Position numbers and translations under genes: made by a program
The notes under the pieces: model-generated
Told to the model about the DNA's origin: nothing
Database searches by the model: none
What the model saw: only the letters and a program-made list of their open reading frames with translations
In this document: positions 8,088-62,888 of the stretch, piece after piece
Numbering within the stretch: the first letter of the stretch is position 1
How the letters are laid out: the number at the start of each line of letters is the position of its first letter
NCBI RefSeq assembly: GCF_003634315.1
Contig: NZ_RBXL01000001.1
Span: 2,770,501-2,834,500, forward strand
Length of the DNA stretch: 64,000 nt
Origin: Thiocapsa rosea
GTDB taxonomy: Bacteria; Pseudomonadota; Gammaproteobacteria; Chromatiales; Chromatiaceae
Direction of reading: 5' to 3'

Positions 8088-8526
8088 TTGCGTGCGCGCC
8101 TATACCGACGGTGCCTGCAAGGGCAATCCGGGACCCGGGGGGTGGGGTGTCCTGCTGCGATGGGGGGAGGTCGAAAAGGAACTCTGCGGCGGCGAGCGCG
8201 CGACCACCAACAACCGCATGGAGCTGATGGCGGTCATCATGGCGCTGGAGGCCATGAAGCGTCCGACCTGTCTAGAGATCGTCACCGACTCTCAATACGT
8301 CAAGCGCGGTGTCGAGGAATGGATGCCGCGTTGGAAACGCAACGGCTGGCAGACGGCCGATCGTAAGCCGGTCAAGAATCGCGACCTCTGGGAACGTCTG
8401 GATTGCGCCATCGGCGCTCATCAGGTGCGTTGGAAGTGGGTCAAGGGCCACGCCGGTCATGCCGAGAACGAGCGTGCGGATAAGCTGGCGAATCGCGGGA
8501 TCGGGGCTGAATCGCGTCCGGCATGA
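8080..8526 (+). CDS. rnhA: Ribonuclease HI
   Basis: Cleaves the RNA strand of RNA-DNA hybrids. The 148-residue protein carries the full RNase H1 catalytic set: Asp in [11 protein letters not shown], Glu in NNRMEL, Asp in VTDSQYV and Asp in NERADKLAN. The start at 8080 ([11 protein letters not shown]) fits the family; the earlier in-frame ATG at 8047 lies deep in the methyltransferase gene. The final five codons and the TGA stop (8508-8526) lie inside a terminal-inverted-repeat element, so the C-terminal tail has been supplied by the repeat. Confidence 0.97.
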
Positions 8527-8592
8527 CATGCGCGGTTTTCGCGTCGACTCAGCGTCGCGTGATTCGGATTGCGTCGGCGCAGACGCGATTCA
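8508..8592. repeat. Terminal-inverted-repeat element R0, 85 bp
   Basis: Ends TGAATCGCGTC and GACGCGATTCA, a perfect 11-bp inverted repeat. It overlaps the last 19 bases of rnhA. It pairs with R1 across a 21-nt AT-rich linker (8593-8613). Confidence 0.8.
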
Positions 8593-8613
8593 GATGTTCA
8601 AATTTTCCTTTTT

Positions 8614-8698
8614 TAAACCGCGTCAGGTCCGAGGCATTTGGAGTCCGCGGGGACTCGCTTGCCTGCAACCCGGCGGGTTTCATTCTGGACGCGGTTTA
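8614..8698. repeat. Terminal-inverted-repeat element R1, 85 bp
   Basis: Ends TAAACCGCGTC and GACGCGGTTTA. Its right end stops 2 nt before the dnaQ ATG, leaving no room for a separate Shine-Dalgarno sequence. Confidence 0.9.
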
Positions 8699-8700
8699 TA

Positions 8701-9423
8701 ATGAGACAGATCGTGCTCGATACCGAGACCACGGGTCTCGATCCACAGGCTGGCCATCGCATCATCGAGATCGGCTGTGTCGAGCTGATCGACCGGCGCC
8801 TGACCGGAAACAACTTCCATCGCTATCTTCAGCCGGATCGGCAGATCGATGCGGGCGCTTCCGACGTGCACGGGATCACCAACGCCTTTCTCGCCGATAA
8901 GCCGCGCTTCGCCGAGATTGCCGAGGGCTTTCTGGACTACGTGGAAGGGGCCGAGCTGATCATCCACAACGCGGCCTTCGATCTCGGGTTTCTCGATCGC
9001 GAGATTGCCGGCTGGAACGCCGAAGCACCGCGGATCCCGGACCTGTGCGAGGTGACGGACACGCTGCTCATGGCTCGGCGCATCCATCCGGGGCAGCGCA
9101 ACAGCCTCGATGCCTTGTGCAAGCGCTACGGCGTGGATCATCGCCATCGCGACCTGCACGGCGCTCTGCTCGATGCCGAGATCCTGGCGGATGTCTATCT
9201 CGCCATGACCGGCGGGCAGGTGGCCTTGAGTCTCGGGGAGGAGGTCGCGACGCCGTCTCATGCAGGGCCGGACGCTCGGCAGCGCGGCCGACTGGATCCG
9301 AGTCGGCCCAGACTTCGCGTGATTCGAGCCGACCAAGCAGCGCTCGACGCACACGCCGAGCGCCTCATGGCCATCCAGGCCGCGAGTGCCGAGGGTTGTC
9401 TTTGGCTTCGCGTGGAAGGATGA
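8701..9423 (+). CDS. dnaQ: DNA polymerase III epsilon subunit (3'-5' proofreading exonuclease)
   Basis: Proofreading subunit of the replicative polymerase core. The 240-residue protein has the DEDDh exonuclease motifs: ExoI VLDTETTGLD, ExoII HNAAFDLGFLD and ExoIII HRDLHGALLDAEILADVY, followed by a variable tail with the polymerase-binding C-terminus. The start at 8701 (MRQIVLDTE) matches the family's N-terminus; an ATG at 8638 would read through repeat R1. The start codon abuts that repeat and no Shine-Dalgarno is visible, so translation may rely on leaderless or unstructured entry, or on the repeat hairpin. Confidence 0.96.
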   Translation: MRQIVLDTETTGLDPQAGHRIIEIGCVELIDRRLTGNNFHRYLQPDRQIDAGASDVHGITNAFLADKPRFAEIAEGFLDYVEGAELIIHNAAFDLGFLDREIAGWNAEAPRIPDLCEVTDTLLMARRIHPGQRNSLDALCKRYGVDHRHRDLHGALLDAEILADVYLAMTGGQVALSLGEEVATPSHAGPDARQRGRLDPSRPRLRVIRADQAALDAHAERLMAIQAASAEGCLWLRVEG

Positions 9424-9427
9424 CGCC

Positions 9428-9512
9428 TAAACTGCGCCGACTCCGGGGTGCTTGGTCGCTCCGGGGCCGATCCAATACGACCGATATCTCACATCTCACC
9501 GGGCGCAGTTTA
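9428..9512. repeat. Terminal-inverted-repeat element R2 (type A, reverse), 85 bp
   Basis: Ends TAAACTGCGCC and GGCGCAGTTTA; the same base change appears at both ends. It lies between convergent dnaQ and fnr. Its right-end TTA is the TAA stop codon of fnr. Read in reverse, the core matches R3 and R8 (ATCGGCCCCGG). Confidence 0.9.
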
Positions 9513-10268
9513 GCTCTGCTGCTGTTGGCGCCGATTCTGCCCGGCGCCGCCCACCAGCGACTCCAGCATGCCCACGTCGAGCAATTGGATGTGCTTGCGG
9601 TCGACATTCATCAGGCCGTCGTCTTGGAAGCGCGTGAAGAGTCGGCTGACGGTCTCGACGGCGAGCCCCAGATAATTGCCGATCTCATGCCGGGACATGC
9701 TCAGATAGAAGTCCGTCGCGGACAGCCCGCGTTTGTGCAGACGCTTCGACAAGCTGAGCAGGAAGGCGGCGAGCCGCTCTTCGGCATTCTTCTTGCCGAG
9801 CAGCAAGAGCATATCCGTGTCGTGTCCGATCTCTTTGCTGAGCAGTCGGAACATCTGATGCTGCAGGCTGGGGATGGTTGCGGTCAGCTCTTCGAGCCGC
9901 GTAAACGGGAGCTCGCAGATGGCGGATGTCTCAAGCACCTTTGCCGAGCAGGCGTGGATGTCCTTGTCGATGGCATCCAGTCCGATGACCTCGCCGGGGA
10001 GATGAAAGCCCAGCACCTGCTCGCCGCCCTCGGGGCTGGGTGCGAAGGTCTTCACCGAGCCGGTCTTCACGACGTAGAGCGAGCGAAATCGGTCTCCGTC
10101 GCGAAACAGGAAATCACCCCGGTGGAGCGGACGCGTGCGTTTGACGATCTCGTCGAGTCGCTCGACATCATCCGGTGCAAGGCCCATGGGCAAGCAAAGC
10201 GACGACAGGGAACAGTTCCTGCAGGCGATGCGAATAGTCTCCAGCGAGATGACTTTATGGTGGCTCAC
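9510..10268 (-). CDS. fnr: FNR/ANR-type oxygen-sensing transcriptional regulator
   Basis: CRP/FNR-family regulator of anaerobic gene expression, 252 residues. The N-terminal Cys16, Cys19 and Cys25 plus Cys107 (in DIHACSAK) fit the four ligands of an oxygen-labile [4Fe-4S] cluster. A cNMP-binding-like beta-roll follows, then a dimerisation helix and a C-terminal HTH with the FNR recognition signature ExxSR (VETVSRLF, about 204-211). Translation starts at a GTG at 10268 with GAGGGGC upstream. The TAA stop is provided by repeat R2. An FNR box overlaps its promoter, so autoregulation is likely. In a purple sulfur bacterium it probably controls anaerobic or phototrophic functions; that is inference. 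Confidence 0.93.
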   Translation of the reverse strand: MSHHKVISLETIRIACRNCSLSSLCLPMGLAPDDVERLDEIVKRTRPLHRGDFLFRDGDRFRSLYVVKTGSVKTFAPSPEGGEQVLGFHLPGEVIGLDAIDKDIHACSAKVLETSAICELPFTRLEELTATIPSLQHQMFRLLSKEIGHDTDMLLLLGKKNAEERLAAFLLSLSKRLHKRGLSATDFYLSMSRHEIGNYLGLAVETVSRLFTRFQDDGLMNVDRKHIQLLDVGMLESLVGGAGQNRRQQQQS

Positions 10269-10297
10269 GGCATCGCCCCTCGATCTTCGGTCGACAG

Positions 10298-10326
10298 ATT
10301 TTGAACCGTCGCTTGATCTGGATCAA
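10298..10326 (-). promoter_or_regulatory. Candidate fnr promoter with FNR box
   Basis: The palindrome TTGATCTGGATCAA (10313-10326) is a perfect FNR/ANR site (TTGAT-N4-ATCAA). On the minus strand, TTGATC inside it can serve as a -35, with CAAAAT (10298-10303) as -10 after 17 nt. The box then overlaps the -35 and spacer, a position typical of repression, suggesting negative autoregulation. The site is seen; the regulatory sign is inferred. Confidence 0.7.
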
Positions 10327-10367
10327 GCGAAGATTATCTTCTTGTCATCCGGTCGACCTCGACGCGT

Positions 10368-10399
10368 AAAAAAGGCCGCGCCCTCGCGGGCGCGGCCTT
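10368..10399 (-). terminator. Rho-independent terminator of the sulfur globule gene
   Basis: Perfect 12-bp stem AAGGCCGCGCCC/GGGCGCGGCCTT with a 4-nt loop; on the minus strand it is followed by a run of T. It separates sgp from fnr. Confidence 0.92.
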
Positions 10400-10428
10400 G
10401 ACGCGAGCCTACCGAATCTGCGTATGGC

Positions 10429-10830
10429 TTACTTCGCTTCGCCGGTCGCGGGGGCAGCGGGCGCGGCGTATGGAGCGGCATAAGGCACGCCGTAGAAGGG
10501 TGCGCCGTAACCGGGATAGCCATAACCGTACCCGGGGTAACCGTAGCCGTACCCCGGATAGCCGTAACCGCGTCCGTAACCGCTTCCGTAGCCACGACCG
10601 CGGCCGTAACCGCGGCCGCCGCCGCTCATGTTCATGTTGAAGTCACCCCATCCGTCGCCGAGCATATCGCCGAACATGTCGCCGAGGCCGGAGCCGTAGC
10701 CGGGTCCGTAACCACCGTAGCCAGGGCCACCCCAACCCGGTCCACCCCACCAGGCTTGCGCCGGGCTCACGGCGAAGGCGGCGGCCGCTGCGATGGCGGC
10801 TGCACTCATCAATTTTGCTGACTGACGCAT
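10429..10830 (-). CDS. Sulfur globule protein, SgpB/SgpC type
   Basis: Structural protein of the envelope around periplasmic sulfur globules, deposited when sulfide or thiosulfate is oxidised. The 133-residue precursor has a cleavable signal peptide ending SPAQA before WWGGPG. The mature part is built almost wholly from Gly, Tyr, Pro, Trp and Asn with [16 protein letters not shown]-like order, an Asn/Met segment (NMNMSGGG) and three YGYPGYG repeats encoded by three 21-nt units at 10505-10567. This matches the Allochromatium CV2/CV3 proteins in composition and size; I cannot choose between SgpB and SgpC. Start at 10830 has AGGAG 8 nt upstream; an ATG at 10857 lacks this. A strong terminator follows. 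Confidence 0.88.
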
Positions 10831-10961
10831 TGTTGACGCTCCTGTGTTTCTGCTCATCTTCTTAGGTCAAACATCGATCAAGGCCGCTGCGTCGGCGCCC
10901 GATCTTATCGAGCGCCTGCAAAGCCGAGAAGGTGTGTTTCGTCCTTTGCGAAACCAACCCG

Positions 10962-10991
10962 ACTATAAAACACCTCCTCGGGTTTTGTGAA
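10962..10991 (-). promoter_or_regulatory. Candidate promoter for the 10.4-kb sulfur globule gene
   Basis: On the minus strand TTCACA (10986-10991), 18 nt, TATAGT (10962-10967), giving a leader of roughly 125 nt before the start at 10830. Pattern match only. Confidence 0.35.
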
Positions 10992-11107
10992 GGTCGCGCG
11001 CGTACACGGAGTCGGCCTCCGCGGAACCGCCGGACCTGGTCGCGTCGAGCCCTTCCGAGTGGCCGATCGGCGGCATTCGCATTGAGCAGTTGCGGGGTTT
11101 TTGGTAG

Positions 11108-13632
<2,525 letters not shown>

Positions 13633-13723
13633 ATCGAACAACGCGATCGGACACGCGTCGGCGTCGGACCGATCGTCGCGAGACTCCCCGTTGAGGCCCT
13701 ATACACTCCTGCGATTCTTCTGA

Positions 13724-15043
<1,320 letters not shown>

Positions 15044-15104
15044 TGTTTGGCGGGCGGAGGTCGGGCGTCTCCGTCCGCTGCTTCCGACACTGAAGGCACC
15101 CGCG

Positions 15105-17870: not shown

Positions 17871-19133
17871 ATGCTCGAGGACACCGGAGTCTTCGTCGGG
17901 CTGGCTGTCGCTTTGGCCATCGGTCTGCTGATCGGTGTGGAGCGCGGTTGGAAGGAACGCAGCGCCGAGGAAGGGCGACGCGTCGCGGGTGTTCGCACCT
18001 ACACCTTGCTCGGGTTTCTCGGCGGGATTTCCGGCCTCGTGGCCGGACCCTCGGGCGGATTGACGCTGGGACTCATCTTCCTGGGGCTTGCCGGCACCCT
18101 GACGGTTGCGCACGTCCTGGACTACAGGCACGACGAGGATATCGGCATTACCAGCCTCGTCGCCGGCCTGATGACCTTCTTGCTCGGGGCGCTTGCGGTG
18201 CTCGGCGATCCGGCCGCCGCCGCAGCGGCGGCCGTGGTCACGGCCCTGCTGCTCGGGTCAAAGCCGCTGATCCATCGCTGGATCCACGCCATCGAGCAGA
18301 AGGATCTCAAGGCCGGTCTTACCCTGCTGCTCATCTCGGTGGTGGCGTTGCCGCTGTTGCCGGATCAGGGGTACGGCCCCTGGAATGCCGTCAACCCACG
18401 TGAAACCTGGTGGATGGTGGTGCTGATCGCAAGCATCTCCTTCGTCGGTTATTACGCGATGAAGCTGGTGGGGACTCGGCGCGGGATCCTGTTCACCGGG
18501 CTCTTCGGCGGGCTTGCGTCGTCGACCGCGCTGACTCTGCATTTCTCGCGCCTGGCGCGCGCCCGTGTGGAGATGGCCCCCGTTCTGGCCACCGCCATCC
18601 TGGTGGCCTGCGCGACCATGTTCCCCCGGATGCTTTTGGTGTCGACGCTGATTCATCCGCCATTGCTGCCGTTCTTGCTCTGGCCTGCCGCGACGATGGC
18701 CCTGATCGCCTACGGATTCGCGGCCTTCTACTGGATCACCCAGTCGCACGACGGCGGGGACGCGGACGCGCTTCTCGACAACCCGCTGGAGCTGAAATCC
18801 GCGGTCGGCTTCGGGCTTCTGCTGGCGTTGGTCATGGTGTCGGCGAAAGGGATCGAGAGCTGGGTCGGTGCGAGCGGCATCATGATGCTGGCCGCCGCCT
18901 CGGGTATCGCGGATGTGGATGCCATTACGCTCGCGATCGCGCGCATGAGCCGGGATGAACTCCCCACGGGCATTGCGGTCTCCAGCATCGTCATCGCTGC
19001 GGCGGTCAACAGCCTGGTCAAAGGTATCATCGCGGCTTCGGTCGGTGGCCGTGCGCTGGGTCTGCGCGTCACCCTACCCTTGGTCTCTGCGGGCCTGGCC
19101 GGCCTTGCCGTCGCCTGGTGGACGCTTTTTTGA
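17871..19133 (+). CDS. MgtC/SapB and DUF4010 domain membrane protein
   Basis: A 420-residue polytopic inner-membrane protein. The N-terminal part resembles MgtC/SapB (VGLAVALAIGLLIGVERGWKER, GVRTYTLLGFLGGISGL); the remainder is DUF4010-like with many hydrophobic helices (FVGYYAMKLVGTRRGILFTG, GGLASSTALTLHFSR, ITLAIARMS). About 12 helices are expected. Function is unknown; the MgtC half suggests a magnesium- or envelope-stress-related role only by family analogy. The start at 17871 (MLEDTGVF) avoids an arginine-rich, non-membrane extension from 17697 that overlaps truD. Confidence 0.85.
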   Translation: MLEDTGVFVGLAVALAIGLLIGVERGWKERSAEEGRRVAGVRTYTLLGFLGGISGLVAGPSGGLTLGLIFLGLAGTLTVAHVLDYRHDEDIGITSLVAGLMTFLLGALAVLGDPAAAAAAAVVTALLLGSKPLIHRWIHAIEQKDLKAGLTLLLISVVALPLLPDQGYGPWNAVNPRETWWMVVLIASISFVGYYAMKLVGTRRGILFTGLFGGLASSTALTLHFSRLARARVEMAPVLATAILVACATMFPRMLLVSTLIHPPLLPFLLWPAATMALIAYGFAAFYWITQSHDGGDADALLDNPLELKSAVGFGLLLALVMVSAKGIESWVGASGIMMLAAASGIADVDAITLAIARMSRDELPTGIAVSSIVIAAAVNSLVKGIIAASVGGRALGLRVTLPLVSAGLAGLAVAWWTLF

Positions 19134-19136: not shown

Positions 19137-19221
19137 TAAACCGCGCCCGGCGGGGTATGCGATGTTCTTGGATGGGATCGGCCCCGGCAGGCTTGACGAG
19201 CGCTGGAGTTGGCGTGGTTTA
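19137..19221. repeat. Terminal-inverted-repeat element R3 (type A, forward), 85 bp
   Basis: Starts TAAACCGCGCC and ends GGCGTGGTTTA (one mismatch). Its core TTGGATGGGATCGGCCCCGG is shared with R8, R11 (reverse) and R17. A 25-nt AT-rich linker (19222-19246) joins it to R4. Confidence 0.92.
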
Positions 19222-19246
19222 AGTGATTGAAAAAAATTTTAAATTT

Positions 19247-19330
19247 TAAACCGCGTCTCACCGAGATCGAGGACATCTCCGAAGCCAAACGCAACAGGAA
19301 AATGACGCATGTTGCTCTAGACGCGGTTTA
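19247..19330. repeat. Terminal-inverted-repeat element R4 (type B, forward), 84 bp
   Basis: Ends TAAACCGCGTC/GACGCGGTTTA. Type B core GAGATCGAGGAC...CTCCGAAGCC is shared with R6 and, reversed, R9. Ends 16 nt before the next start codon. Confidence 0.92.
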
Positions 19331-25331: not shown

Positions 25332-25417
25332 TAAACCGCGCCCGGTAGGATATGCGTAGTTTGTTGGATTGGCTCGACCGCGCCGGCGCCGATAACTGTC
25401 GGGGCCGGCGCGGTTTA
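25332..25417. repeat. Terminal-inverted-repeat element R5 (type A-like, forward), 86 bp
   Basis: Ends TAAACCGCGCC/GGCGCGGTTTA, perfect. The core resembles R10 reversed (TATGCGT..TTTG.TGGA.TGGCT). A 23-nt AT-rich linker leads to R6. Confidence 0.92.
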
Positions 25418-25440
25418 AAGTATGAAAAAATATTAAATTT

Positions 25441-25523
25441 TAATCCGCGTTTCGCGAGGTCGAGAACTTCTCCGAAGCCGGCCGCACGCTGAAATCGACG
25501 CATGTCGCTCTCAACGCAGATTA
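25441..25523. repeat. Terminal-inverted-repeat element R6 (type B, forward), 83 bp
   Basis: Ends TAATCCGCGTT/AACGCAGATTA: both outer and inner variant bases appear at both ends, with one mismatch. Core matches R4. Confidence 0.85.
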
Positions 25524-25607
25524 AACCGCGTCCCGGTACGACATGCACCCACACCATGTGGCTCGGCTTTTCGTGATCTCAAGACGCGTCAAAGCGGACG
25601 TCGTTTT
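25522..25607. repeat. Terminal-inverted-repeat element R7, degenerate
   Basis: Starts TAAACCGCGTC sharing two bases with the end of R6; the right end is decayed (GACGTCGTTTT, 8 of 11 matching the family end). Confidence 0.6.
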
Positions 25608-27032: not shown

Positions 27033-27809
27033 ATGCTCGAGATTCGTCCCATCCCTGCCTTCGAGGACAACTACATCTGGCTGCTGACCGAGGAGCCGGG
27101 AACGGCAGTGGTCGTGGACCCGGGGGATGCCGATCCGGTTCTGGATCGCCTCCATGCCGAGAATCGCATCCTCTCCGCCATCCTGGTCACTCACCACCAC
27201 GGTGATCACATCGGCGGATTGAGCGTGCTGCGCGCGGTCTTTCCCGATGCGCGCATCTATGGCCCTGTCGACCGGAGGATCCGCGATCTGACCGATCCGC
27301 TGGGCGAGGGGACGGTCGTGCGCCCGACGGGCCTGAGCGTTGATTTCCGTGTCATGGAGGTGCCGGGTCATACCTCGACGCACATCGCCTACCTGGGTGC
27401 CGGCTGCCTGTTCTGCGGCGATACGCTGTTTGCGGGGGGCTGCGGACGGGTCTTCGACGGCACCTTCGAGCAGCTCTCGGATTCCTTGGACCGAATCGCC
27501 GCGCTGCCACCCGAGACGCTGGTGCACTGCGCACACGAGTACACCCTCGCGAATCTCGGGTTTGCCGACTGGGTCGAGCCCGGCAGCCCGGCCCTGAGCG
27601 TGCGGATGGAATCCGACCGCAAACGACGGGCGACGGATCGGCCCACGGTCCCGTCGCGTCTGGAGCTGGAACTCGCGACCAACCCCTTCCTGCGCACCCG
27701 GGTGCCGGAGGTTGTCCAAGCCGCCGAGCGTGCCGCGGGGCGCCCGCTCGGCTCGGCCCGAGAGGTCTTCAGGGCGCTGCGCCAGTGGAAAGACGATGAC
27801 TACGACTAA
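27033..27809 (+). CDS. gloB: Hydroxyacylglutathione hydrolase (glyoxalase II)
   Basis: Hydrolyses S-D-lactoylglutathione in methylglyoxal detoxification. The 258-residue metallo-beta-lactamase-fold protein has the metal-binding THHHGDHIGG, VPGHTSTHIAY, FCGDTLFAGGCGR and HCAHEYT motifs and a GloB C-terminal helix (REVFRALRQWKDDD). Its TAA stop (27807-27809) is the first three bases of repeat R8. In E. coli gloB neighbours mltD and rnhA; here it is about 18 kb away from them. Confidence 0.96.
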   Translation: MLEIRPIPAFEDNYIWLLTEEPGTAVVVDPGDADPVLDRLHAENRILSAILVTHHHGDHIGGLSVLRAVFPDARIYGPVDRRIRDLTDPLGEGTVVRPTGLSVDFRVMEVPGHTSTHIAYLGAGCLFCGDTLFAGGCGRVFDGTFEQLSDSLDRIAALPPETLVHCAHEYTLANLGFADWVEPGSPALSVRMESDRKRRATDRPTVPSRLELELATNPFLRTRVPEVVQAAERAAGRPLGSAREVFRALRQWKDDDYD

Positions 27810-27891
27810 ACCGCGCCAAGTGCGGTACGAGATGCTTCTGGATGGGATCGGCCCCGGCAGACTCGACGACCGCTGGAGTCGGCCCGGTTTG
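27807..27891. repeat. Terminal-inverted-repeat element R8 (type A, forward), 85 bp
   Basis: Starts TAAACCGCGCC, whose TAA is the gloB stop. Right end partly decayed (GGCCCGGTTTG). Core matches R3, R11 and R17. Confidence 0.88.
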
Positions 27892-33447: not shown

Positions 33448-34806
33448 ATGCATCTGCATATCCTGGGCATCTGCGGCACCTTCATGGGCGGCATTGCCCT
33501 TCTGGCGCGTGCGCTCGGTCACCGGGTCACGGGCTCGGATGCCAACGTCTATCCCCCGATGAGCACCCAGCTCGAGGCAGCGGGCATCGGGTTGATGGAG
33601 GGCTATGATCCGAGCCACCTCCAACCTGCGCCCGATGTGGTGGTGGTCGGCAACGCCATGAAACGGGGCATTCCGGCCGTCGAGGCGATGCTGGATCGCG
33701 GCCTGCGCTATTGCTCGGGTCCGGAATGGCTGCGCGAGAATCTGTTGGCCGATCGCTGGGTGCTGGCCGTTGCGGGCACGCACGGCAAAACGACGACCGC
33801 GAGCATGCTCGCCTGGGTCTTGGAGGACGCCGGTCTCGCGCCCGGCTTCCTGATCGGCGGCGTGCCGCTGGATTTCGGGCTGTCCGCGCGCCTGGGCTCC
33901 ACACCCTTTTTCGTGGTCGAGGCGGACGAGTACGACACCGCCTTCTTCGATAAGCGGTCCAAATTCGTCCACTATCGACCCATCACCCTGATTCTCAACA
34001 ATCTGGAGTTCGACCACGCCGATATCTTCGACGATCTCGGCCAGATCCAGCGCCAGTTCCATCATCTGGTACGTACCGTCCCGGGTCGCGGCCTGATCGT
34101 CCATCCGGGTGCCGAACCGGCGATCGATCAGGTGCTGGCGATGGGCTGTTGGACACCGCGCGAGTCCTTCGGCGAGGCGGGACAATGGACCGCGCGGCTG
34201 CTTTTGCCCGACGGCTCGCGCTTTGAAGTGCTGCTCGATGATCGCCCGCTGGGCGAGGTCGACTGGGGTCAGACGGGTCTGCACAACGTGCACAACGCGC
34301 TCGCTGTCTTGGCCGCGGCCAGACACGCGGGTGTCCCGGTCGGTGCCGGGATCGCCGCCCTGGGTCGGTTCAACGGGGTGAAGCGTCGCATGGAGCTGCG
34401 CGGCGAGGTCGCGGGTGTGTGCGTCTACGACGACTTCGCCCATCACCCGACGGCGATCCGGACCACTCTGGAAGGCTTGCGCCGTCGGGTCGGCGAGCAG
34501 CGCATCCTGGCCGTGCTCGAGCCGCGCTCCAACACCATGCGTCTGGGTGTCCACAATCGCGAGCTGGCCACCTCGCTCGATGCGGCCGATCGGGTATTTG
34601 TCTTCGCACCTGCTGATCTGGGTTGGGATGCCGCGGCCGTCTTCGCGGGGCTTGCGCAGCGTGCGGCGGTGCATGCCGATCTCGACGCTCTCGCCGCTGC
34701 GGTGGTTGCCGAGTGTCGTGCGGGCGATCAGGTGTTGGTCATGAGCAACGGCGGTTTCGGCGGAATCCACCAAAAGCTCCTGGACGGACTGGCGCGGGAG
34801 CGCTAA
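33448..34806 (+). CDS. mpl: UDP-N-acetylmuramate:L-alanyl-gamma-D-glutamyl-meso-diaminopimelate ligase
   Basis: Recycles murein tripeptide by joining it to UDP-MurNAc. The 452-residue Mur-ligase protein has the N-terminal Rossmann motif HILGICGTFMGG, ATP-binding GTHGKTTTASM, central metal/carbamate region with VVEADEYDTAFFDKRSKF and LNNLEFDHADIF, and C-terminal DDFAHHPTAI. These match Mpl more than MurC. The TAA stop (34804-34806) is the terminal TAA of repeat R9. Confidence 0.95.
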   Translation: MHLHILGICGTFMGGIALLARALGHRVTGSDANVYPPMSTQLEAAGIGLMEGYDPSHLQPAPDVVVVGNAMKRGIPAVEAMLDRGLRYCSGPEWLRENLLADRWVLAVAGTHGKTTTASMLAWVLEDAGLAPGFLIGGVPLDFGLSARLGSTPFFVVEADEYDTAFFDKRSKFVHYRPITLILNNLEFDHADIFDDLGQIQRQFHHLVRTVPGRGLIVHPGAEPAIDQVLAMGCWTPRESFGEAGQWTARLLLPDGSRFEVLLDDRPLGEVDWGQTGLHNVHNALAVLAAARHAGVPVGAGIAALGRFNGVKRRMELRGEVAGVCVYDDFAHHPTAIRTTLEGLRRRVGEQRILAVLEPRSNTMRLGVHNRELATSLDAADRVFVFAPADLGWDAAAVFAGLAQRAAVHADLDALAAAVVAECRAGDQVLVMSNGGFGGIHQKLLDGLARER

Positions 34807-34887
34807 ACCGCGTCCAGAGCGAAATGGGTGATTTTCACTTTGTGTTCGGCGTCGGAGGTTTCCTCGATCTCGGCGAGACGCGGTTTA
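34804..34887. repeat. Terminal-inverted-repeat element R9 (type B, reverse), 84 bp
   Basis: Ends TAAACCGCGTC/GACGCGGTTTA, perfect; its first TAA is the mpl stop. Core is type B reversed. A 10-nt AT-only linker joins R10. Confidence 0.93.
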
Positions 34888-34897
34888 AAATTTAATT

Positions 34898-34983
34898 TAA
34901 ACCGCGCCAGCTCCGACAGTCGTCGGAGCTGGCGCGGCCAAGCCATTCCAGCAAATGACGCATACCGCACCTGGCGCGGTTTA
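34898..34983. repeat. Terminal-inverted-repeat element R10 (type A-like, reverse), 86 bp
   Basis: Ends TAAACCGCGCC/GGCGCGGTTTA, perfect; includes an extra internal hairpin (AGCTCCGACAG/CGTCGGAGCT). Ends 18 nt before the ubiX start. Confidence 0.93.
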
Positions 34984-41098: not shown

Positions 41099-41866
41099 AT
41101 GTGTACCTTCGTCATTCTGAGGCGTCCGGGGCATCCCTGGCCGGTGTTGATCGCGGCCAATCGCGACGAGATGCGCACGCGGCCGAGTCGCCCGCCGGGC
41201 CGACATTGGTCGGACCGCTCGGAGGTGCGCGCGGGGCTCGACCTGGCGTCCGGCGGGAGCTGGCTCGGGGTGAACGACCATGGCCTCGTCGCCGCGGTCA
41301 TGAACCGTCGGGGGACGCTCGGATCCCTGCCCGGCAAACGCAGCCGCGGCGAGCTGGTCTTGGATGCGCTCGACCATGCCGAAGCCTCCGAGGCGGCCGG
41401 GGCACTGGCGGATCTGGATCCTGCTGCCTATCGGCCCTTCAATCTGGTGCTGGCCGATCCGCGCTCGGCCTACTGGCTGCGCCACGGAGGCGACGGCGAT
41501 ATCCGCGTCCACCCGATCTCCGCCGGTCTGCACATGTTGAGCGCGAGCGAGCTCGACGATCTCGATGAGCCGCGCATCGCCGAGCATCTGCCGCGGTTCG
41601 TCGCGGCCCAGATCCCGGATCCCGATGCCGACGAGTGGACGGCCTGGCGGAACCTACTTGCATCGAATCAGGGGCTGGCATCGAATCAGGGCCATCCGGA
41701 TGCGGGATCCGAGTGCGCCATGACGTTCGAGCGGCCCGACGGGTTCGGCACGCGATCCTCGGCGCTGATCGCCATCCCCCTGTATCCCGGTTACGGCAGC
41801 GGTCCGATCTGGCTGCATGCGGAGGGGAGGCCGGATGAAGCCCCATTCCTCCGAGTCCCCAGCTAA
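41099..41866 (+). CDS. NRDE (TANGO2-like) family protein
   Basis: A 255-residue cytosolic protein of the NRDE/TANGO2 family, N-terminal-nucleophile-like in fold. It starts MCTFVILRR with Cys2 and carries the eponymous AANRDEM, then ASGGSWLGVNDHGLVAAVMNRRG, RSRGELVLDAL and TRSSALI. The animal homologue has been linked to haem transport and lipid metabolism; the bacterial role is unknown. hemCD lie just downstream on the same strand beyond two repeats. A 16-nt direct duplication near 41660-41692 gives SNQGLASNQG. The TAA stop (41864-41866) is the left end of repeat R12. Confidence 0.88.
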   Translation: MCTFVILRRPGHPWPVLIAANRDEMRTRPSRPPGRHWSDRSEVRAGLDLASGGSWLGVNDHGLVAAVMNRRGTLGSLPGKRSRGELVLDALDHAEASEAAGALADLDPAAYRPFNLVLADPRSAYWLRHGGDGDIRVHPISAGLHMLSASELDDLDEPRIAEHLPRFVAAQIPDPDADEWTAWRNLLASNQGLASNQGHPDAGSECAMTFERPDGFGTRSSALIAIPLYPGYGSGPIWLHAEGRPDEAPFLRVPS

Positions 41867-41950
41867 ATTGCGTCCCCGAACGAGGCGGGATGCTTGCAGT
41901 TTGCGGCGGCCCGGGGTGGATACCTCGGGCTCCGCGCTGGACGCAATTTA
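41864..41950. repeat. Terminal-inverted-repeat element R12, 87 bp
   Basis: Ends TAAATTGCGTC/GACGCAATTTA: two positions differ from the family consensus at the left end and the complementary two at the right. Its first TAA is the NRDE gene stop. A 20-nt AT-rich linker joins R13. Confidence 0.92.
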
Positions 41951-41970
41951 GGATATTAAAAACAATTATT

Positions 41971-42055
41971 TAAACTGCGTCCGCTCCGTCGTTCGTCGGC
42001 GTCTGCAGCGTCGAGAAAGGGTTTGAGCAGCCATGTGGCTCCGAGACGCAGTTTA
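41971..42055. repeat. Terminal-inverted-repeat element R13, 85 bp
   Basis: Ends TAAACTGCGTC/GACGCAGTTTA, perfect, with the same symmetric variant seen in R2. Nothing recognisable between it and hemC (42056-42198). Confidence 0.92.
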
Positions 42056-55390: not shown

Positions 55391-55475
55391 TAAACCGCGT
55401 CCGGAGTGATTAGGCGATGGTTTTGGGTTCGTTGGGCCTTATCTGTATCCGCGACCGCAGTGGAGACGCGGTTTA
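55391..55475. repeat. Terminal-inverted-repeat element R14, 85 bp
   Basis: Starts TAAACCGCGTC and ends GACGCGGTTTA, perfect. A 20-nt AT-rich linker (55476-55495) leads to R15. Confidence 0.92.
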
Positions 55476-55495
55476 ATGATTATTTTTCAATGATT

Positions 55496-55580
55496 TGAAT
55501 CGCGTCTACGCCGGCGTTTCGGGTGTTCTCGATGTCGGCGGGCCCGGTGCAACGCGGGTTTGCACCGCGGACGCGATTCA
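55496..55580. repeat. Terminal-inverted-repeat element R15, 85 bp
   Basis: Ends TGAATCGCGTC/GACGCGATTCA, perfect, the same end variant as R0. Contains an inner hairpin (GGTGCAAC/GTTTGCACC). Confidence 0.92.
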
Positions 55581-55632
55581 ACAATCCTGAGGCATCTCAT
55601 GTCGCTTTCGCAAATCGGGGGCAGGTTGGTTA

Positions 55633-56496: not shown

Positions 56497-56692
56497 GCGA
56501 TCGGCGTGTGCGTATCCTCGAAGGCTGTTGGCGGATATGATTCGGCCGTGCAGCGCACGCCACGGCGGCGGTGCATTCCGGTCGCGCGGACGCTCGGACA
56601 TCTTCGTCCGTGTGGTCCGCTCGACTGCACGGTGCTCGGTTCGACCTCGAGCCCGGGCATGATCGGAACCGACAATCTATAAGGAGCCATCG

Positions 56693-57103: not shown

Positions 57104-57165
57104 ATTCTCAAACGACCGGGCGTCGGCCGTCGGCGCGACGCCATTGAAGTCCCGGAGATTCAACG

Positions 57166-57399
57166 ATGAAAGTCACCACAGTTACGGCTGCGTTCGCCTG
57201 CATCGTCCTGCTCGGCGGATGCGGGAGCACGACCACCTCCCGTGTCGCGACAGGCACCGGCATGGGCGCAGCCAGCGGCGCCGTCATAGGATCCTTCAGC
57301 GGCAATGCCGGTCGCGGCGCGCTCATCGGTGCCGGCGTGGGTGCCTTGGGCGGGGTGCTCGTTGACGAGCATCAGCGCGGCAGCTTCAGCAACAACTGA
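57166..57399 (+). CDS. Glycine-zipper lipoprotein
   Basis: A 77-residue lipoprotein: signal peptide with lipobox VLLGGC at Cys19, then a glycine-zipper segment (GTGMGAASGAVIGSFSGNAGRGALIGAGVGALGG) typical of small outer-membrane lipoproteins related to OsmB/YMGG. Such proteins respond to envelope or osmotic stress in E. coli; regulation here is not shown. It follows the Rap1a-like gene by 62 nt. Confidence 0.85.
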   Translation: MKVTTVTAAFACIVLLGGCGSTTTSRVATGTGMGAASGAVIGSFSGNAGRGALIGAGVGALGGVLVDEHQRGSFSNN

Positions 57400-57415
57400 T
57401 CCGGACGCTGGATCG

Positions 57416-57438
57416 ACCGAGCCGTTCATCGGCTCGGT
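57416..57438 (+). terminator. Stem-loop after the glycine-zipper gene
   Basis: Perfect 9-bp stem ACCGAGCCG/CGGCTCGGT with TTCAT loop, 17 nt after the stop; no T tract, so termination would be weak or Rho-assisted. Confidence 0.5.
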
Positions 57439-57814
57439 CGGCGTCCTCTCGATCTCCCCCTGCGCGTGCAGCGGGTGATGCCGACCGGATGCGTGCGGCC
57501 TCGAGCGGGCTCCCGAAGCCATCGAGGAGGCGGTGCCCGGGCGATGCGGGATTCTGCGGCGGGCTCGGCGCGTATCCGCAGCGATCGGAACGGCTGGCTT
57601 TCAGATTGCTCCTCCCCGGGAACCGGGTTTCCGCCCGATGAATCGTCACATTTTTTTCAATGAAATGGAGTTGACGCTTCGCATACGATCCACTAGCTTT
57701 TATCAGGAATCAGTTGCGGCGCTTCTCGGGGTCCCTTCCGCTGTCGAGTCGGCTTGTGTGTTGGCAGCTCGGCAGTCTTGGCTCGACCAACGCACACCAG
57801 CATGAGAGACAGCG
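57439..57814. other. Leader region of the RRM protein gene
   Basis: No gene recognised in this 376-base stretch. An AT-rich tract with CATTTTTTTCAATGAAATGG lies near 57650 and a candidate promoter at 57671-57699. Open frames crossing it have no recognisable product. Confidence 0.5.
57671..57699 (+). promoter_or_regulatory. Candidate promoter of the RRM protein gene
   Basis: TTGACG (57671-57676), 17 nt, TAGCTT (57694-57699). The -10 is weak. Leader about 110 nt. Confidence 0.35.
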
Positions 57815-58096
57815 ATGAGGATCTACGTAGGAAACCTGACCTATAGCGTGACCGACGACGACCTGCGGGAAGTCTTCGGGGCGTTCGGTGATCTTGCGGC
57901 GGCGGAGGTGATCAAGGATAAGTTTTCCGGTCAGTCCAAAGGCTTCGGGTTCGTCGATATGCCCAACAACTCGGAGGCGGATGCGGCCATCAAGGCGCTG
58001 AACGAAACCGACTTCAAGGGACGCAAACTCACCGTCAACGAGGCACGTCCGCGTGCCGAACGTCCACGCGGCGGTGGGGGTGGGGGGCGCTACTGA
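57815..58096 (+). CDS. RRM-type RNA-binding protein
   Basis: A 93-residue bacterial RNA-recognition-motif protein. RNP2 is IYVGNL at the N-terminus and RNP1 KGFGFVDM in the middle; a short Gly/Arg tail (RPRGGGGGGRY) follows, as in cyanobacterial and other cold-responsive Rbp proteins. It likely binds single-stranded RNA, possibly during cold stress; this is family knowledge rather than shown here. It is convergent with ubiD. Confidence 0.94.
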   Translation: MRIYVGNLTYSVTDDDLREVFGAFGDLAAAEVIKDKFSGQSKGFGFVDMPNNSEADAAIKALNETDFKGRKLTVNEARPRAERPRGGGGGGRY

Positions 58097-58165
58097 CCCC
58101 GTCGCTCGACCTTACGATCGACACAGGATCGTCGTCGGGGCGCGTTGCGCCGCCGGCGTCGAGTC

Positions 58166-59677
58166 CTACCGATGTCGTTTACCCGCCTCGCCCTCCGTCG
58201 TTCCGACCCGAGGGCCGATGCCGAGGCTGTCCCAGATCACGTCGACCCGTTCGCGTACCGCCTCGTCCATCCTGATCGGGCTTCCCCACTCGCGCGTCGT
58301 CTCCCCCGGCCACTTGTTCGTGGCATCGAAGCCGATCTTCGATCCCAGCCCCGAGACCGGAGAGGCAAAATCCAGATAGTCAATCGGCGTATTCTCGATC
58401 ATCACCGTGTCGCGCGCCGGATCCATGCGGGTCGTCATCGCCCAGATCACATCCTGCCAGTCGCGCGTACAGACGTCGTCGTCCACGATGATGACGAACT
58501 TGGTATACATGAACTGACGCAAGAACGACCAGACCCCCATCATCACCCGTTTGGCATGCCCCGGATATTGCTTCTTGATGCTGACGACCGCCAGGCGATA
58601 CGAACAACCCTCCGGCGGCAGATAGAAGTCCTGGATCTCGGGAAACTGTTTCTGGAGGATGGGCACGAAGACCTCGTTCAAGGCCACGCCCAGAATGGCC
58701 GGCTCGTCGGGGGGGCGTCCGGTGTAGGTGCTGTGATAGATGGGCTCGCGGCGTTGAGTGATGCGCTCGATGGTGAAGACCGGAAACTCGCCGACCTCGT
58801 TGTAGTACCCCGTGTGGTCGCCGAAAGGCCCTTCCGGTGCCCTGTCGTCCGGGTCGATATGGCCTTCGAGCACGATCTCGGCGCTGGCCGGGACCTGAAG
58901 ATCGGACTCCTTGCAGGCCGCCAACTCGGTGCGGCTGCCGCGCAGCAGGCCGGCGAAGGCGTATTCGGACAAGGTGTCCGGCACCGGTGTGACCGCGCCG
59001 AGAATCGTCGCAGGATCGGCCCCGAGTGCGACGGTCACCGGGAATGGCTTGCCGGGATGGGCGCGTTGCCAGTCGCGAAAGTCCAGTGCCCCGCCGCGGT
59101 GGGCGAGCCAGCGCATGATGACCCGGTTGCGCCCGAGCACCTGCATGCGATAGATGCCGAGGTTGTGGCGCGCCTTCTCCGGCCCCTTGGTGATGACTAG
59201 GCCCCAGGTGATCAGCCGCGCGGCGTCCCCCGGCCAGCAATGTTGAATGGGCAGGCGCCCCAGATCGACTTGATCCCCGCTGAATTCGACCTCCTGGCAG
59301 GGCGCGTTGCGCCGAACCTTCGGGGCCATGTCCAACACCTTCTTGAAGATCGGCAGCGACTGCCACGCCTCCTTCATCCCCTTCGGCGGATCCGGCTCTT
59401 TTAGAAAGGCCAGCAGCTTGCCGACCTCGCGCAACGCCTCGACCGATTCCTCCCCCATGCCGAGTGCCACGCGGCGCGTCGTCCCGAATAGGTTGCCCAG
59501 CAAGGGGATCTTCGACCCCTTCGGTCGCTCGAACAACAGTGCCGGCCCACCGGCCCGCAGCGTCCGGTCGCAGATTTCGGTCACCTCGAGATAGGGGTCG
59601 ACCTCGACCCGGATGCGTTTCAGCTCGCCGCGCTGCTCGAGCTGATCGATAAAATCACGCAGGTCGTGGTACTTCAT
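58166..59677 (-). CDS. ubiD: 4-hydroxy-3-polyprenylbenzoate decarboxylase
   Basis: Decarboxylates polyprenyl-hydroxybenzoate in ubiquinone synthesis using prenyl-FMN made by UbiX (35.0 kb). The 503-residue protein has [42 protein letters not shown], the conserved [11 protein letters not shown] with the catalytic Glu-Arg region, and [10 protein letters not shown] near the end. Normal length for UbiD. Convergent with the RRM gene. Confidence 0.97.
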
Positions 59678-59847
59678 TTTTTATCCCGTGCCGGGATAAA
59701 AAAACAGGTCTTCATAGGGTTAACCTCGTTCTGCGAATTTGGGCCGTTGTGCCCCGTGCCCCGGGGCTTCACGGACCCGGCCATATCGCTGATCGGATCC
59801 GGTGGACAACCACGGTAGGTGGTGACTGAATCGTTTCTTAAATCCCT

Positions 59848-59932
59848 TAAACCGCGTCGCGCCGATCGGCAATGGTGGCCTCGCCATCACCACAGGCCCC
59901 GACACCAGTGTTCGTACTCCGAACGCGGTTTA
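59848..59932. repeat. Terminal-inverted-repeat element R16, 85 bp
   Basis: Starts TAAACCGCGTC and ends GAACGCGGTTTA (one inner mismatch); right-end TTA is the prlC stop codon. Contains an inner hairpin AATGGTGGC/GCCATCACC. Confidence 0.9.
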
Positions 59933-61963
59933 AGCCGCGATGCCGGAATGGCGCAGCAAGGCATCCGTATTCGGCTCGCGCCCCCGAAACCGCACATAGA
60001 GCACCATGGCGTCTTCGGATCCGCCCTTCTCAAGGATATTTTCGCGGAAGGATCGGCCGGTATCTGCATCGAAAACACCGGTTTCCTCGAACAGCGAGAA
60101 GGCGTCCGCCGACAGGACCTCGGCCCATTTGTAGCTGTAATAGCCCGCCGCGTAGCCGCCCGCGAAGATGTGCGAGAAGGCGTGGGCGAAGCGGTTGAAG
60201 GCGGGCGGGCGGATGACGGCGACCCGGTCGCGGACCTCCTCGATGATCTCGTAGACACGCCCGCCCTTGGCCGGGTCGTATTCCAGATGCAGGCGGAAAT
60301 CAAACAGCGCGAATTCCAGTTGCCGCACCATCTGCATGGCCGACTGGAAGTTCTTCGCCGCGGTCATGCGCTCGTAGAGATCCTGCGGGATGGATGCGCC
60401 GGTCTCCCAATGGGCGGCGAAGAGGTCGAGCGATTCGCGCTCCCAGCACCAGTTCTCCATGAACTGACTGGGCAGCTCGACCGCGTCCCACGGTACCCCG
60501 TTGATCCCGGCGACACCGGGATAGTCGACCTTGGTCAGCATGTGGTGCAGGCCGTGGCCGAACTCGTGGAAGAGTGTCTCGACCTCGTTGTGGGTCAGCA
60601 GCGAGGGCTTGCCGCCGACCGGCGGGGTGAAGTTGCACACCAGGTAGGCGACCGGGAGCTGGTCGCAGCGACTGGTGTGCATCCGGTTGGTGCAGACGTC
60701 CATCCAGGCCCCGCCGCGCTTGTTCTGCCGTGCGAAGGGATCGAGATAGAATTGGCCGCGCAGCGCCCCGGATGCGCCGTCGCGGATCTCGAAGAAGCGC
60801 ACGTCCGGGTGGTAGGTGTCGAACGCCTCCGCCTCCTGGATCTTGACCCCGAACAGGCGCTCGACGACGCCGAAGAGACCAGACAGCACCCGCGAAATCG
60901 GGAAGTAGGGGCGCAGCTCTTCCTGGCTGATTTGATAGCGGTGCAGGCGCAGCTTCTCGGCGTAATAGCCGACGTCCCACGGCTCCAGCGTCTCGACGTT
61001 GTGCTGCTCGCGCGCGAACGCCGTAAGCTCCGCGAGCTCCTTGCGGGCCTGGTCGACCGAGCGGTCGGCCAGGTCGTTCAGGAAGGCGAGCACGTCGTCC
61101 GGCGAGCGGGCCATCTTGGTCGCGAGCGAACGCTCGGCATAGTTTGCAAATCCCAGCAGCCCGGCCAGCTCGTGACGCAGCGCCAGGATGCGCTCCATGA
61201 TCTCGCTGTTGTCCCACTGTCCGGCATGCGGCCCCTGTTCGGAGGCGCGTGTGCCGTAAGCCTGATACAGCTCGAAGCGCAGCTCGCGATTGTCCGCATA
61301 GGTCATGACCGGCATGTAGGAGGGCAGGTCGAGCGTGAAGAGCCAGCCGGTCTGGCCCCGTTGTTCGGCGTTCTGCCGGGCCAGCCCAAGCGCGGATTCG
61401 GGCAGGCCCGCGAGCTGTGCCTCGTCCTCGATCAGCTTGCTCCAGGCGTTGGTGGCGTCGAGCACGTTCTCGGAATACTTGGTCGTGAGCTGGGAGAGCT
61501 CCTGACTGATGGCTTTGTAGCGGGCCTTCTTCTCGGCGGGCAGGTCGACACCCGAGAGATGAAAGTCGCGCAGCGCGTTCTCCAACAGCTTGCGCTGTGC
61601 CGGGTTCAGATGCTCTTGCGCGGCGACCGCCTGGTAGCCGCGGAAGAGATCCTCGTTCTGCCCGACCTCGGTGCCGTAATCGCTGAGCTTCGGCAGGCAG
61701 GCGTTGTAGGCCGCGCGCAGCTCGTCGCTGTTGAGCACGCCGTTGAGGTGCCCGACCGGCGACCAGGCGCGACTCAGGCGGTCGTCGATCTCGTCCAGCG
61801 GCTCGACGAAGTTCTCCCAGGTCGGCACCGGGACCGCGTGGGTCAGACGCTCGATCTCGGCACGACAGTCGGCGAGACAGACGTCGATGGCGGGCTCGAC
61901 GTGTTCGGGACGGATCCGGGAAAAGGCCGGGAGGCCGGTGGTCTCGAGCAATGGGTTCGTCAT
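59930..61963 (-). CDS. prlC: Oligopeptidase A (M3 family metallopeptidase)
   Basis: Cytosolic zinc peptidase that degrades signal peptides and other oligopeptides. The 677-residue protein has the M3 zinc motif HEFGHGLHHML with a downstream Glu in the helix, and the C-terminal IFAGGYAAGYYSYKWAEVLSADAF typical of OpdA/PrlC. Start at 61963 (MTNPLLETTG) is chosen by homology; a frame open to 62047 adds an unsupported N-terminus. The TAA stop is the end of repeat R16. Confidence 0.96.
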   Translation of the reverse strand: MTNPLLETTGLPAFSRIRPEHVEPAIDVCLADCRAEIERLTHAVPVPTWENFVEPLDEIDDRLSRAWSPVGHLNGVLNSDELRAAYNACLPKLSDYGTEVGQNEDLFRGYQAVAAQEHLNPAQRKLLENALRDFHLSGVDLPAEKKARYKAISQELSQLTTKYSENVLDATNAWSKLIEDEAQLAGLPESALGLARQNAEQRGQTGWLFTLDLPSYMPVMTYADNRELRFELYQAYGTRASEQGPHAGQWDNSEIMERILALRHELAGLLGFANYAERSLATKMARSPDDVLAFLNDLADRSVDQARKELAELTAFAREQHNVETLEPWDVGYYAEKLRLHRYQISQEELRPYFPISRVLSGLFGVVERLFGVKIQEAEAFDTYHPDVRFFEIRDGASGALRGQFYLDPFARQNKRGGAWMDVCTNRMHTSRCDQLPVAYLVCNFTPPVGGKPSLLTHNEVETLFHEFGHGLHHMLTKVDYPGVAGINGVPWDAVELPSQFMENWCWERESLDLFAAHWETGASIPQDLYERMTAAKNFQSAMQMVRQLEFALFDFRLHLEYDPAKGGRVYEIIEEVRDRVAVIRPPAFNRFAHAFSHIFAGGYAAGYYSYKWAEVLSADAFSLFEETGVFDADTGRSFRENILEKGGSEDAMVLYVRFRGREPNTDALLRHSGIAA

Positions 61964-62168
61964 GGGTGTGGCCTGATCGGGTTCGCGGGTCAATGTGGTC
62001 AGTCGGGTGGCGCTCGGCAACCGCTCGCAGGGAGCCGCCGGGACCACCGGCGGTTCGCAGCAGGCGGAGCCTCGCCAAGCGCCGGATCATGCGGGCTGCA
62101 GGCCGGAGTTTCCAGTCGATGGCCCGGGTCGGGGCGGGCGCTCGGTGGTGTCGATGCACTCGGCGTCG

Positions 62169-62795
62169 TCAGTCCGGCAGAAAACCCATGTTCTGGCGCG
62201 GCGAGATGCGGCCCTTGAGCGAGCGGACCATGTCGATCTTCGGGCGCGGCGCGAAGGCCTGCGGGATGCAGAAGTGAAACCGCCACAGGTCGTGGCGCCA
62301 GCGCTCCCCGCCGTGGGCGGGGATCGGCAGCCATTCGTCCGAGGCAATCGGAACGAACCCGTTGCCGGCACCGTAGGCATAGATCTTGTAGGCGCCCCGC
62401 GGCGTGCAGCGGATGCCCTCCACCGAGAGGTTGCGGTTCCCGTTGCTGCCCTCCGCGACGAGCGTAAAGCGCACGACATCGTCGGAGCCGATCTGCAGGT
62501 TGCGGGTGTCGATGAAATACCGCAAGCCTGCATCGGGTCCATCCGGGACCAGCTCGACCAGATCCGCGTCCTGCGGCCAAGGCGGGAGCGCGGTGTTCGA
62601 TTCCTGCCAAGGTGTGCCCGGTCGAACGCTCGAAGGCACGGGCGGCTCGGCGTTGTTCACGAAGGCGTTCTCCGCGGCCGATACGGGCATTGCGAGCAGA
62701 AGAAGATGCAGCAAAAGAAGGGTGTCCCAGAAAAAACGATGCCGGGGCGGGAGGACCGATGGAAGCTGGCGGGGAGGTGTCATGATGTCGATCAC
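62169..62795 (-). CDS. CNP1-like family exported protein
   Basis: A 208-residue protein with a signal peptide (LLLLHLLLLAMPVSA) and a CNP1-like domain: LPPWPQDADLVELVPDG, RYFIDTRNLQIGSDDVVRFTLV, IRCTPRGAYKIYAYG. The family is named for a neisserial cryptic protein and has no assigned function. ATG at 62795 or 62783 (MTPPRQLPS) are both possible. Repeat R17 starts 7 nt upstream of the first. It lies 205 nt upstream of prlC on the same strand. Confidence 0.85.
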   Translation of the reverse strand: MIDIMTPPRQLPSVLPPRHRFFWDTLLLLHLLLLAMPVSAAENAFVNNAEPPVPSSVRPGTPWQESNTALPPWPQDADLVELVPDGPDAGLRYFIDTRNLQIGSDDVVRFTLVAEGSNGNRNLSVEGIRCTPRGAYKIYAYGAGNGFVPIASDEWLPIPAHGGERWRHDLWRFHFCIPQAFAPRPKIDMVRSLKGRISPRQNMGFLPD

Positions 62796-62802
62796 CGGGG
62801 AT

Positions 62803-62888
62803 TAAACCGCGCCCAGCGCGGTATGCGATGCTTTGGGATGGAATCGGCCCCGGCAGACGTGACGGCCGCTGGAGCCTGCGCGATTTGA
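62803..62888. repeat. Terminal-inverted-repeat element R17 (type A, forward), 86 bp
   Basis: Starts TAAACCGCGCC; right end decayed (CGCGATTTGA). Core matches R3, R8 and R11. Lies between the divergent CNP1-like and smc genes, where promoters are expected. Confidence 0.88.

Follow-up and report, generated by a model that had tools for sequence, protein, structure and literature searches.

A 64,000-nt stretch of the Thiocapsa rosea genome (NZ_RBXL01000001.1, positions 2,770,501-2,834,500; the window, meaning this whole stretch) carries a family of short repeats with pairing 11-bp ends, TAAACCGCGYC and GRCGCGGTTTA, which we interpret as the halves of a two-hairpin transposable unit (Table 1). 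A relaxed scan of the window returned 18 paired-end modules, each 83-87 bp long, which is exactly the number claimed in an earlier reading of the letters alone (the original prediction), and every end variant quoted there is present. Two of the modules are paired at only 8/11 end positions, a stricter scan retains 15 modules, and other loose settings add chance matches at 13724 and 8898. No match above the Rfam gathering score was found in the window.

Table 1. Clusters of the repeat in the window, with module boundaries, left/right ends and contact with stop codons
Position	Strand	Element	Composition and remarks
8508..8698		old doublet	8508-8592 (TGAATCGCGTC/GACGCGATTCA) + 21-bp spacer + 8614-8698 (TAAACCGCGTC/GACGCGGTTTA)
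9428..9512	-	single module, weakly A-like	ends TAAACTGCGCC/GGCGCAGTTTA; TTA end is the stop codon of a - strand gene
19137..19330	+	doublet, A + C reversed	A 19137-19221, 25-bp AT-rich spacer, C 19247-19330
25332..25607	+	triplet	B 25332-25417; diverged 25441-25523 (TAATCCGCGTT/AACGCAGATTA); partial 25522-25607 (8/11 paired)
27807..27891	+	single A-type module	first TAA is the upstream gene's stop codon
34804..34983	-	doublet, C + B reversed	C 34804-34887, 10-bp spacer, B 34898-34983; TAA is the upstream stop codon
36261..36344	-	single A-type module, reversed	TTA end is the stop codon of a - strand gene
41864..42055		old doublet	41864-41950 (TAAATTGCG/CGCAATTTA) + 41971-42055 (TAAACTGCG/CGCAGTTTA); TAA is the upstream stop codon
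55391..55580		old doublet	55391-55475 + 55496-55580 (TGAATCGCG/CGCGATTCA)
59848..59932		single diverged module	TTA end is the stop codon of a - strand gene
62803..62887	+	single A-type module, decayed right end	8/11 paired

The repeats are abundant beyond the window loci. The exact pattern TAAACCGCGYC-N50-70-GRCGCGGTTTA has 509 matches in the 6.11-Mb genome and none when the pattern is read backwards, and a scan at ≥9/11 paired ends, run on 800 kb of this genome, found 132 copies and none once the sequence was reversed. Most counts below come from a looser paired-end scan (≥8/11 pairs) that covered 1.194 Mb of this genome, with 5,000 bases masked, and returned 213 modules, of which 15 reach no more than 8 pairs, versus 4 in the reversed sequence, each at exactly 8/11. 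Four 400-kb stretches of two relatives gave 61, 44, 61 and 22 modules, versus 3, 3, 4 and 3 when reversed; since such controls give small, non-zero counts, a few of the counted modules are chance matches. The predicted density of about one copy per 3.6 kb holds in the window and drops to an average of about one per 5.6 kb across the 1.194 Mb, a figure that extrapolates to roughly 1,000 modules genome-wide, each of them a half-unit, and to 1-2% of the genome. Densities are given only for the window's own genome because some loci from other genomes were fetched as holders of the pattern.

In 3.71 Mb, 668 modules group into 468 clusters, comprising 272 singles, 192 doublets and 4 triplets. Four interior types are abundant, A and B with GCC ends and C and D with GTC ends, and these types combine in a nearly fixed way: both modules could be typed in 141 of the 192 doublets (neither in 45, just one in 6), and 137 of the 141 consist of a forward A or B module followed by a reversed C or D module, tail to tail. 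The other four doublets combine C with D, A with C in the same direction, A with A, and A with B, once each. A spacer length of 23 bp is shared by 97 of the 192 doublets, including 89 of the 137 with the common arrangement, and those 89 spacers share an AT-rich consensus that, oriented from A/B to C/D, reads about ARRTATTAAAAAATATAWAATTT. The moving unit is thus the doublet of ~193 bp including the flanking TA, an A/B hairpin, a conserved AT-rich spacer and a C/D hairpin, and the 85-bp unit of the original prediction, a real module, is only half of it. Both the outer ends of the unit and the ends of each module are inverted, and no transposase gene lies inside; the unit is short and gene-less, has inverted ends and occurs in many copies, which are the features of a bacterial miniature inverted-repeat transposable element (MITE).

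Comparison of filled with empty sites, which had been proposed together with the original prediction, bears directly on how the unit arrived. Copy flanks were matched to the genomes of relatives, yielding 22 distinct sites with an empty-like counterpart, and 13 of these have a clean single TA: the filled form Y-TA-AACC...GGTT-TA-R (Y, pyrimidine; R, purine) stands opposite the empty form Y-TA-R, or nearly so, at 10 doublets and 3 singles. The flanking bases show a preference, with Y before the left TA in 144 of 149 clusters and R after the right TA in 137 of 149 (273 and 267 of 286, respectively, with two relatives added). IS630 itself is said, in a title of 1991 cited by PMC2170065, to insert preferentially at TA within CTAG. 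Insertion at TA with duplication of the TA, as found here, is the behaviour described for IS630/Tc1-mariner elements in excerpts of PMC2170065.

Individual sites show turnover of the family. The window doublet 34804-34983 is absent from two relatives, G001 and G004, whose empty sites have a single TA, and it is probably a lineage gain because G001, which also lacks it, is the closer relative by sequence identity. The doublet 8508-8698 lies at the same place in seven related genomes and is absent there in three congeners without exact copies. At the site of 19137, compared by eye in eight genomes, an A-C' doublet here corresponds to A-D' in G004, a lone D' in G005 and a deletion derivative in G008; other sequence interrupts the place in G001 and G003, and no element was seen in G002 and G009. 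Another site has a D-A' doublet here versus A' alone in G001, which fits deletion between the repeated TAAACCGCG ends. The mechanism of such half-exchanges and losses at fixed sites is one that we infer. Two junctions in the window are also irregular: at 19131 a gene stop region TGAACC precedes the TAAACC of the element, like a leftover end, and modules 25441-25523 and 25522-25607 have the TA at 25522-25523 in common, as would be seen if one had landed in the other's end.

The elements sit chiefly between genes and often on their ends. Using codon-based gene calls made in the analysis, we placed the 149 clusters in 89 tandem, 31 convergent and 20 divergent gaps, with 8 inside called genes and 1 unclassed; the available gaps number 477, 121 and 131, respectively. 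In 65 of the 140 intergenic clusters an adjacent gene ends on the element's outer TAA or TGA, so that many gene ends have been re-labelled with a stop codon owned by the element; counted by gene, 70 of 132 adjacent gene ends stop exactly in the element (57 TAA, 13 TGA), and in the window 6 of the 11 clusters supply a neighbouring stop codon. Another 15 of the 132 have a stop codon that starts 5 or 6 bases ahead of the element. A preference for stop codons as such was rejected, since near gene ends YTAR itself is frequent in stops: 119 YTAR sites lie at stops and 134 within 60 bp downstream, versus 70 and 38 elements. Much of the stop-codon use therefore follows from the abundance of YTAR in stop codons; TAA and TAG are a plentiful supply of YTAR in this GC-rich genome, and insertion restores TAA, which is why many copies lie exactly on stop codons. 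About 12% of intergenic YTAR sites are occupied (149 clusters versus 1,074 free sites in 1.19 Mb).

We put at about 85% the probability that the family is a gene-less MITE of ~189 bp, AACCGCG...CGCGGTT, built from two ~81-bp hairpins of different type and inserted at Y-TA-R with duplication of the TA. A transposase of the IS630/Tc1-mariner kind, a family suggested by the TA duplication, would spread the unit in trans through its outer ends; deletion between the repeated TAAACCGCG ends would be the main source of singles, and recombination would exchange half-units from one copy to another. Once a copy is in place, its hairpins would tend to keep their 11-bp stems paired while the loops drift, presumably because the hairpin, transcribed at gene 3' ends, is under weak selection, with template-switch repair of the palindrome as the main alternative.

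Several observations weigh against this reading. Nine of the 22 comparable sites lack a clean TA; at five of them a different dinucleotide, in most cases CA or TG, stands in its place, three have rearranged junctions and one is ambiguous, with a TA within a poorly aligned flank, and excision may explain individual empty sites. Furthermore, a mobiliser did not come to light in the loci scanned. Among the 48 PF13358 (IS630-type) matches in the genus, 33 (7 in this genome, 26 in others) were scanned for modules within ~1.5 kb, and no module stands beside any of the 33; 29 of them have loose head-like matches (≤4 substitutions in 17 positions), which we take for chance. A transposase carrying the element's ends was not found among these 33 of 48 loci or the 9 Y1 loci, nor were outer heads seen by eye around a transposase of their own in 3.7 Mb, and no parental insertion sequence (IS) with matching ends was found, in this genome or a relative, among the 33 loci scanned. 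Convergent outer heads 300-4,000 bp apart form 24 pairs in 3.7 Mb, none of them autonomous-like by eye. The sole transposase-like protein between a pair of heads lies in G001, in the broken spacer of a B-C doublet (~2798583-2799971 of contig C1, loci L286-L287), on an insert with inverted repeats of its own; by eye it resembles an IS1595-type transposase.

The ends of each module covary, as the original prediction had noticed in the window. Judged by 300 permutations of the ends, which leave relatedness in, and by counts at orthologous sites, the left and right ends of a copy change together: over end positions 1-9 of the 213 modules there are 68 double and 77 one-sided changes, a double-change fraction of 0.469 versus a permuted mean of 0.050 (sd 0.020, maximum 0.113). 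Restriction to the 194 modules with ≥9 pairs leaves 46 double and 46 one-sided changes (0.500 versus 0.056, maximum 0.118). Position 2 is AT in 171 modules, GC in 34 and in other states in 8; the 34 GC modules, 4 of which pair at only 8/11, are spread over 33 interior clusters. The idea that stop codons drive this switch between TAAACC and TGAACC was dropped, since stop-codon modules show no clear excess of GC at position 2 (13 of 70, versus 21 of 143 others). Switches of AT/GC and of CC/TT also occur at orthologous sites; for example, the left modules at 41864 in eight genomes have CC/GG, CT/AG or TT/AA, with positions 5 and 6 always paired, and exchange between species could lower the number of separate events there. 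In the G001 orthologue of this site, the left end of the element is expanded into tandem CCCCAGCTAAACCGCATC-like copies ahead of the module. A tRNA suspected by eye beside 42055 was not found by a search.

The covariation is a property of the hairpin and not of the unit. Same versus different states number 99 versus 108 within hairpins, 11 versus 124 between the outer ends of a doublet, and 13 versus 131 between its inner ends. The original prediction had offered either selection on pairing or end-homogenising mobility; mobility and within-hairpin covariation stand, but end-homogenising mobility is not supported because it predicts matching outer ends. The mobility is real but of another sort, that of a two-hairpin unit inserting at TA.

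Predicted folds agree in part with the paired ends. Folding energy lies below that of shuffled controls, with a clear margin for B and a modest one for A, C and D (15 copies of each type), and when folded as single-stranded DNA, 7 of 8 window modules tested (8 of 18) form the closed stem; the eighth, a B type, favours its own internal hairpin. RNAalifold consensus folds of A-D show little beyond the ends, the internal hairpin of B excepted. In B modules (for example 34898-34983) this 16-bp internal hairpin uses one module end and is an alternative to end-to-end pairing.

Old copies show that the stems change slowly. In six modules at three old sites, compared in seven species that had no part in the detection, divergence is 0.077 in the stem and 0.221 in the interior, one of the six (55496) being in decay; ascertainment is thereby reduced and not abolished, because the three sites were picked as intact in this genome. 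An earlier estimate of stem conservation (0.92 versus 0.80), which left out 12 module comparisons with interior identity <0.6 and, separately, comparisons with length differences >40 bases, was set aside as biased because its reference copies had been found by their own ends. Across orthologous sites there are 66 one-sided changes and 12 double changes that preserve pairing; 5 of the 12 fall at position 10, which distinguishes A/B from C/D modules. In sum, ordinary mutations are found in new copies, and old copies whose ends are still recognisable keep them paired, the second point being partly ascertainment.

What keeps the ends paired is either selection or template switching during replication, and the two are not separated by these data. 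Against selection on RNA, 416 A-D copies found by their interior alone hold 276 mismatched or wobble pairs and 19 paired double changes, so that new copies are under no strict requirement to pair, and the excess of GU over AC pairs is slight and drawn from orthologues that are not independent. In co-directional contexts one-sided pairs are GU-type in 59 cases and AC-type in 37 (p 0.03, with orthologues counted repeatedly), versus 10 and 9 in divergent gaps, 13 and 11 in convergent gaps, and 32 and 23 in this genome alone; the GU excess leans weakly to RNA. Template switching between the arms of a quasi-palindrome would copy one arm onto the other, so that the ends change together and stay matched, and excerpts of PMC8794818 describe it as able to create and maintain hairpins. 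Such a process would act within each hairpin only, as seen, would leave few mixed intermediates among the double changes, as at position 2, and predicts the near balance of one-sided GU and AC pairs. It does not readily account for the lack of any double change at positions 1, 3 and 9 in the 213 modules, nor for stems that change ~3 times more slowly than the loop at the three old sites, a slowing that homogenisation alone seems unlikely to produce. Overall, we hold template switching to be a serious contender, though the less probable of the two.

Other accounts of the whole element fare worse. An enzyme might instead read the folded single strand, recognising paired stems (a core of T.AA..GCG plus pairing), one A/B and one C/D, and inserting at TA as DDE enzymes do, while a host protein or RNase that recognises the hairpin at gene 3' ends keeps the old stems; we consider this unlikely. 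A structured RNA encoded by the host, such as a bidirectional terminator or a 3'-end stabiliser, and spread by recombination, would explain why 70 of 132 adjacent genes stop in the element, why stems are conserved at the three old sites and why modules fold below their shuffled controls. However, filled and empty pairs with TA duplication occur at unrelated places, exact copy number ranges from 0 to 509 among 11 genomes of the genus, and the bias in gene orientation is small. A host function acquired after insertion is compatible with a MITE; the TA duplications speak against a host RNA as the source of the element, and we rate that origin as distinctly improbable.

An origin as REP/REPIN-type repeats with a Y1 (RAYT) transposase as mobiliser would fit the high copy number, the extragenic position, the hairpins and the tail-to-tail pairs, and a search for such a transposase had been suggested with the original prediction. 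Nine Y1 (PF01797) loci are indeed present in the genome, one with a single module 1.3 kb off on one side and two others with one 8-base end match each, but none of the nine is bracketed by module ends. The duplication of TA also argues against such an origin, as do 85-bp units with distant 11-bp ends in place of short tagged palindromes; REPs are defined in excerpts of PMC3733652 as 20-40 bp palindromes tagged GTAG or CGTC, a definition that the modules do not fit. We regard this origin as very improbable. Integron attC-like recombination sites resemble the modules in being imperfect inverted repeats of similar length; attC sites belong to arrays of cassettes with an integrase, and modules that stand singly, doubly or triply between called genes and duplicate TA on insertion lead us to give this possibility very little weight, no search for an integrase having been made.

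Eight of the 11 genomes in the genus, this one among them, hold the exact pattern, with 0 to 509 copies across the 11. In the bacterial family as a whole it is present in 28 of 210 genomes, from 10 of 61 genera, and none of 21 genomes from other families has it; the three congeners without exact matches keep a few weak, partial similarities. Named carriers among the matches listed (at least 80 stretches) are Thiocapsa, Thiobaca, Lamprocystis, Thiocystis and metagenome-assembled genomes of Chromatiaceae. Viral contigs gave no match, and neither did plasmids with one doublet as the query. No report of repeats like these in Thiocapsa or Chromatiaceae was found in the open-licence literature, most subscription journals being outside the coverage. 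The passages that matched the search words in a Chromatiaceae genome paper (PMC6374484) concern CRISPR and assembly gaps, and the MITEs of Thiomargarita in the matched part of PMC4853749 are unrelated to the Thiocapsa element.

Several known repeats invite comparison by architecture. The REP/BIME/REPIN repeats likewise have hairpins in opposite orientation and mosaic doublets, with smaller palindromes, whereas the Thiocapsa element has TA duplication and no bracketed Y1 gene. Correia/NEMIS elements of Neisseria number hundreds of copies. RUP of pneumococcus is described in passages of PMC2229807 and PMC3049150 as a short, non-autonomous intergenic repeat with a target containing TA, paired ends in the predicted transcript and a proposed IS630-type insertion, IS630-Spn1 being the proposed mobiliser; RUP is, however, one 107-bp unit with ends like those of a resident IS630, whereas the Thiocapsa element is a two-hairpin heterodimer for which no parental IS was found among the loci scanned. 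In the same passages of PMC2229807, ERIC/IRU of enterobacteria (127 bp, co-transcribed) has terminal repeats, TA termini and a target-site duplication, and Correia/NEMIS has TA termini, a target-site duplication and inverted ends. Both differ in host, Correia/NEMIS also in its 24-bp ends and architecture, and for ERIC/IRU those passages mention neither heterotypic tail-to-tail modules nor end covariation; for these two and for RUP, the comparison is by architecture only. BOX of pneumococcus is a modular repeat of different units with a folded RNA, built from boxA, boxB and boxC modules (PMC3049150, in the part on BOX), whereas the Thiocapsa element has two unlike hairpins tail to tail.

We describe these repeats as a new family of bacterial TA-inserting MITE. 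It is unusual because its two-hairpin build is heterotypic and nearly obligate, because it heavily occupies YTAR sites and because its ends covary. Filled and empty pairs, half-exchanges and covarying old copies are all available within one genus, making it possible to test selection against template switching as the force that keeps hairpin ends paired, and to ask how an almost obligatory pair of modules is maintained in a MITE.

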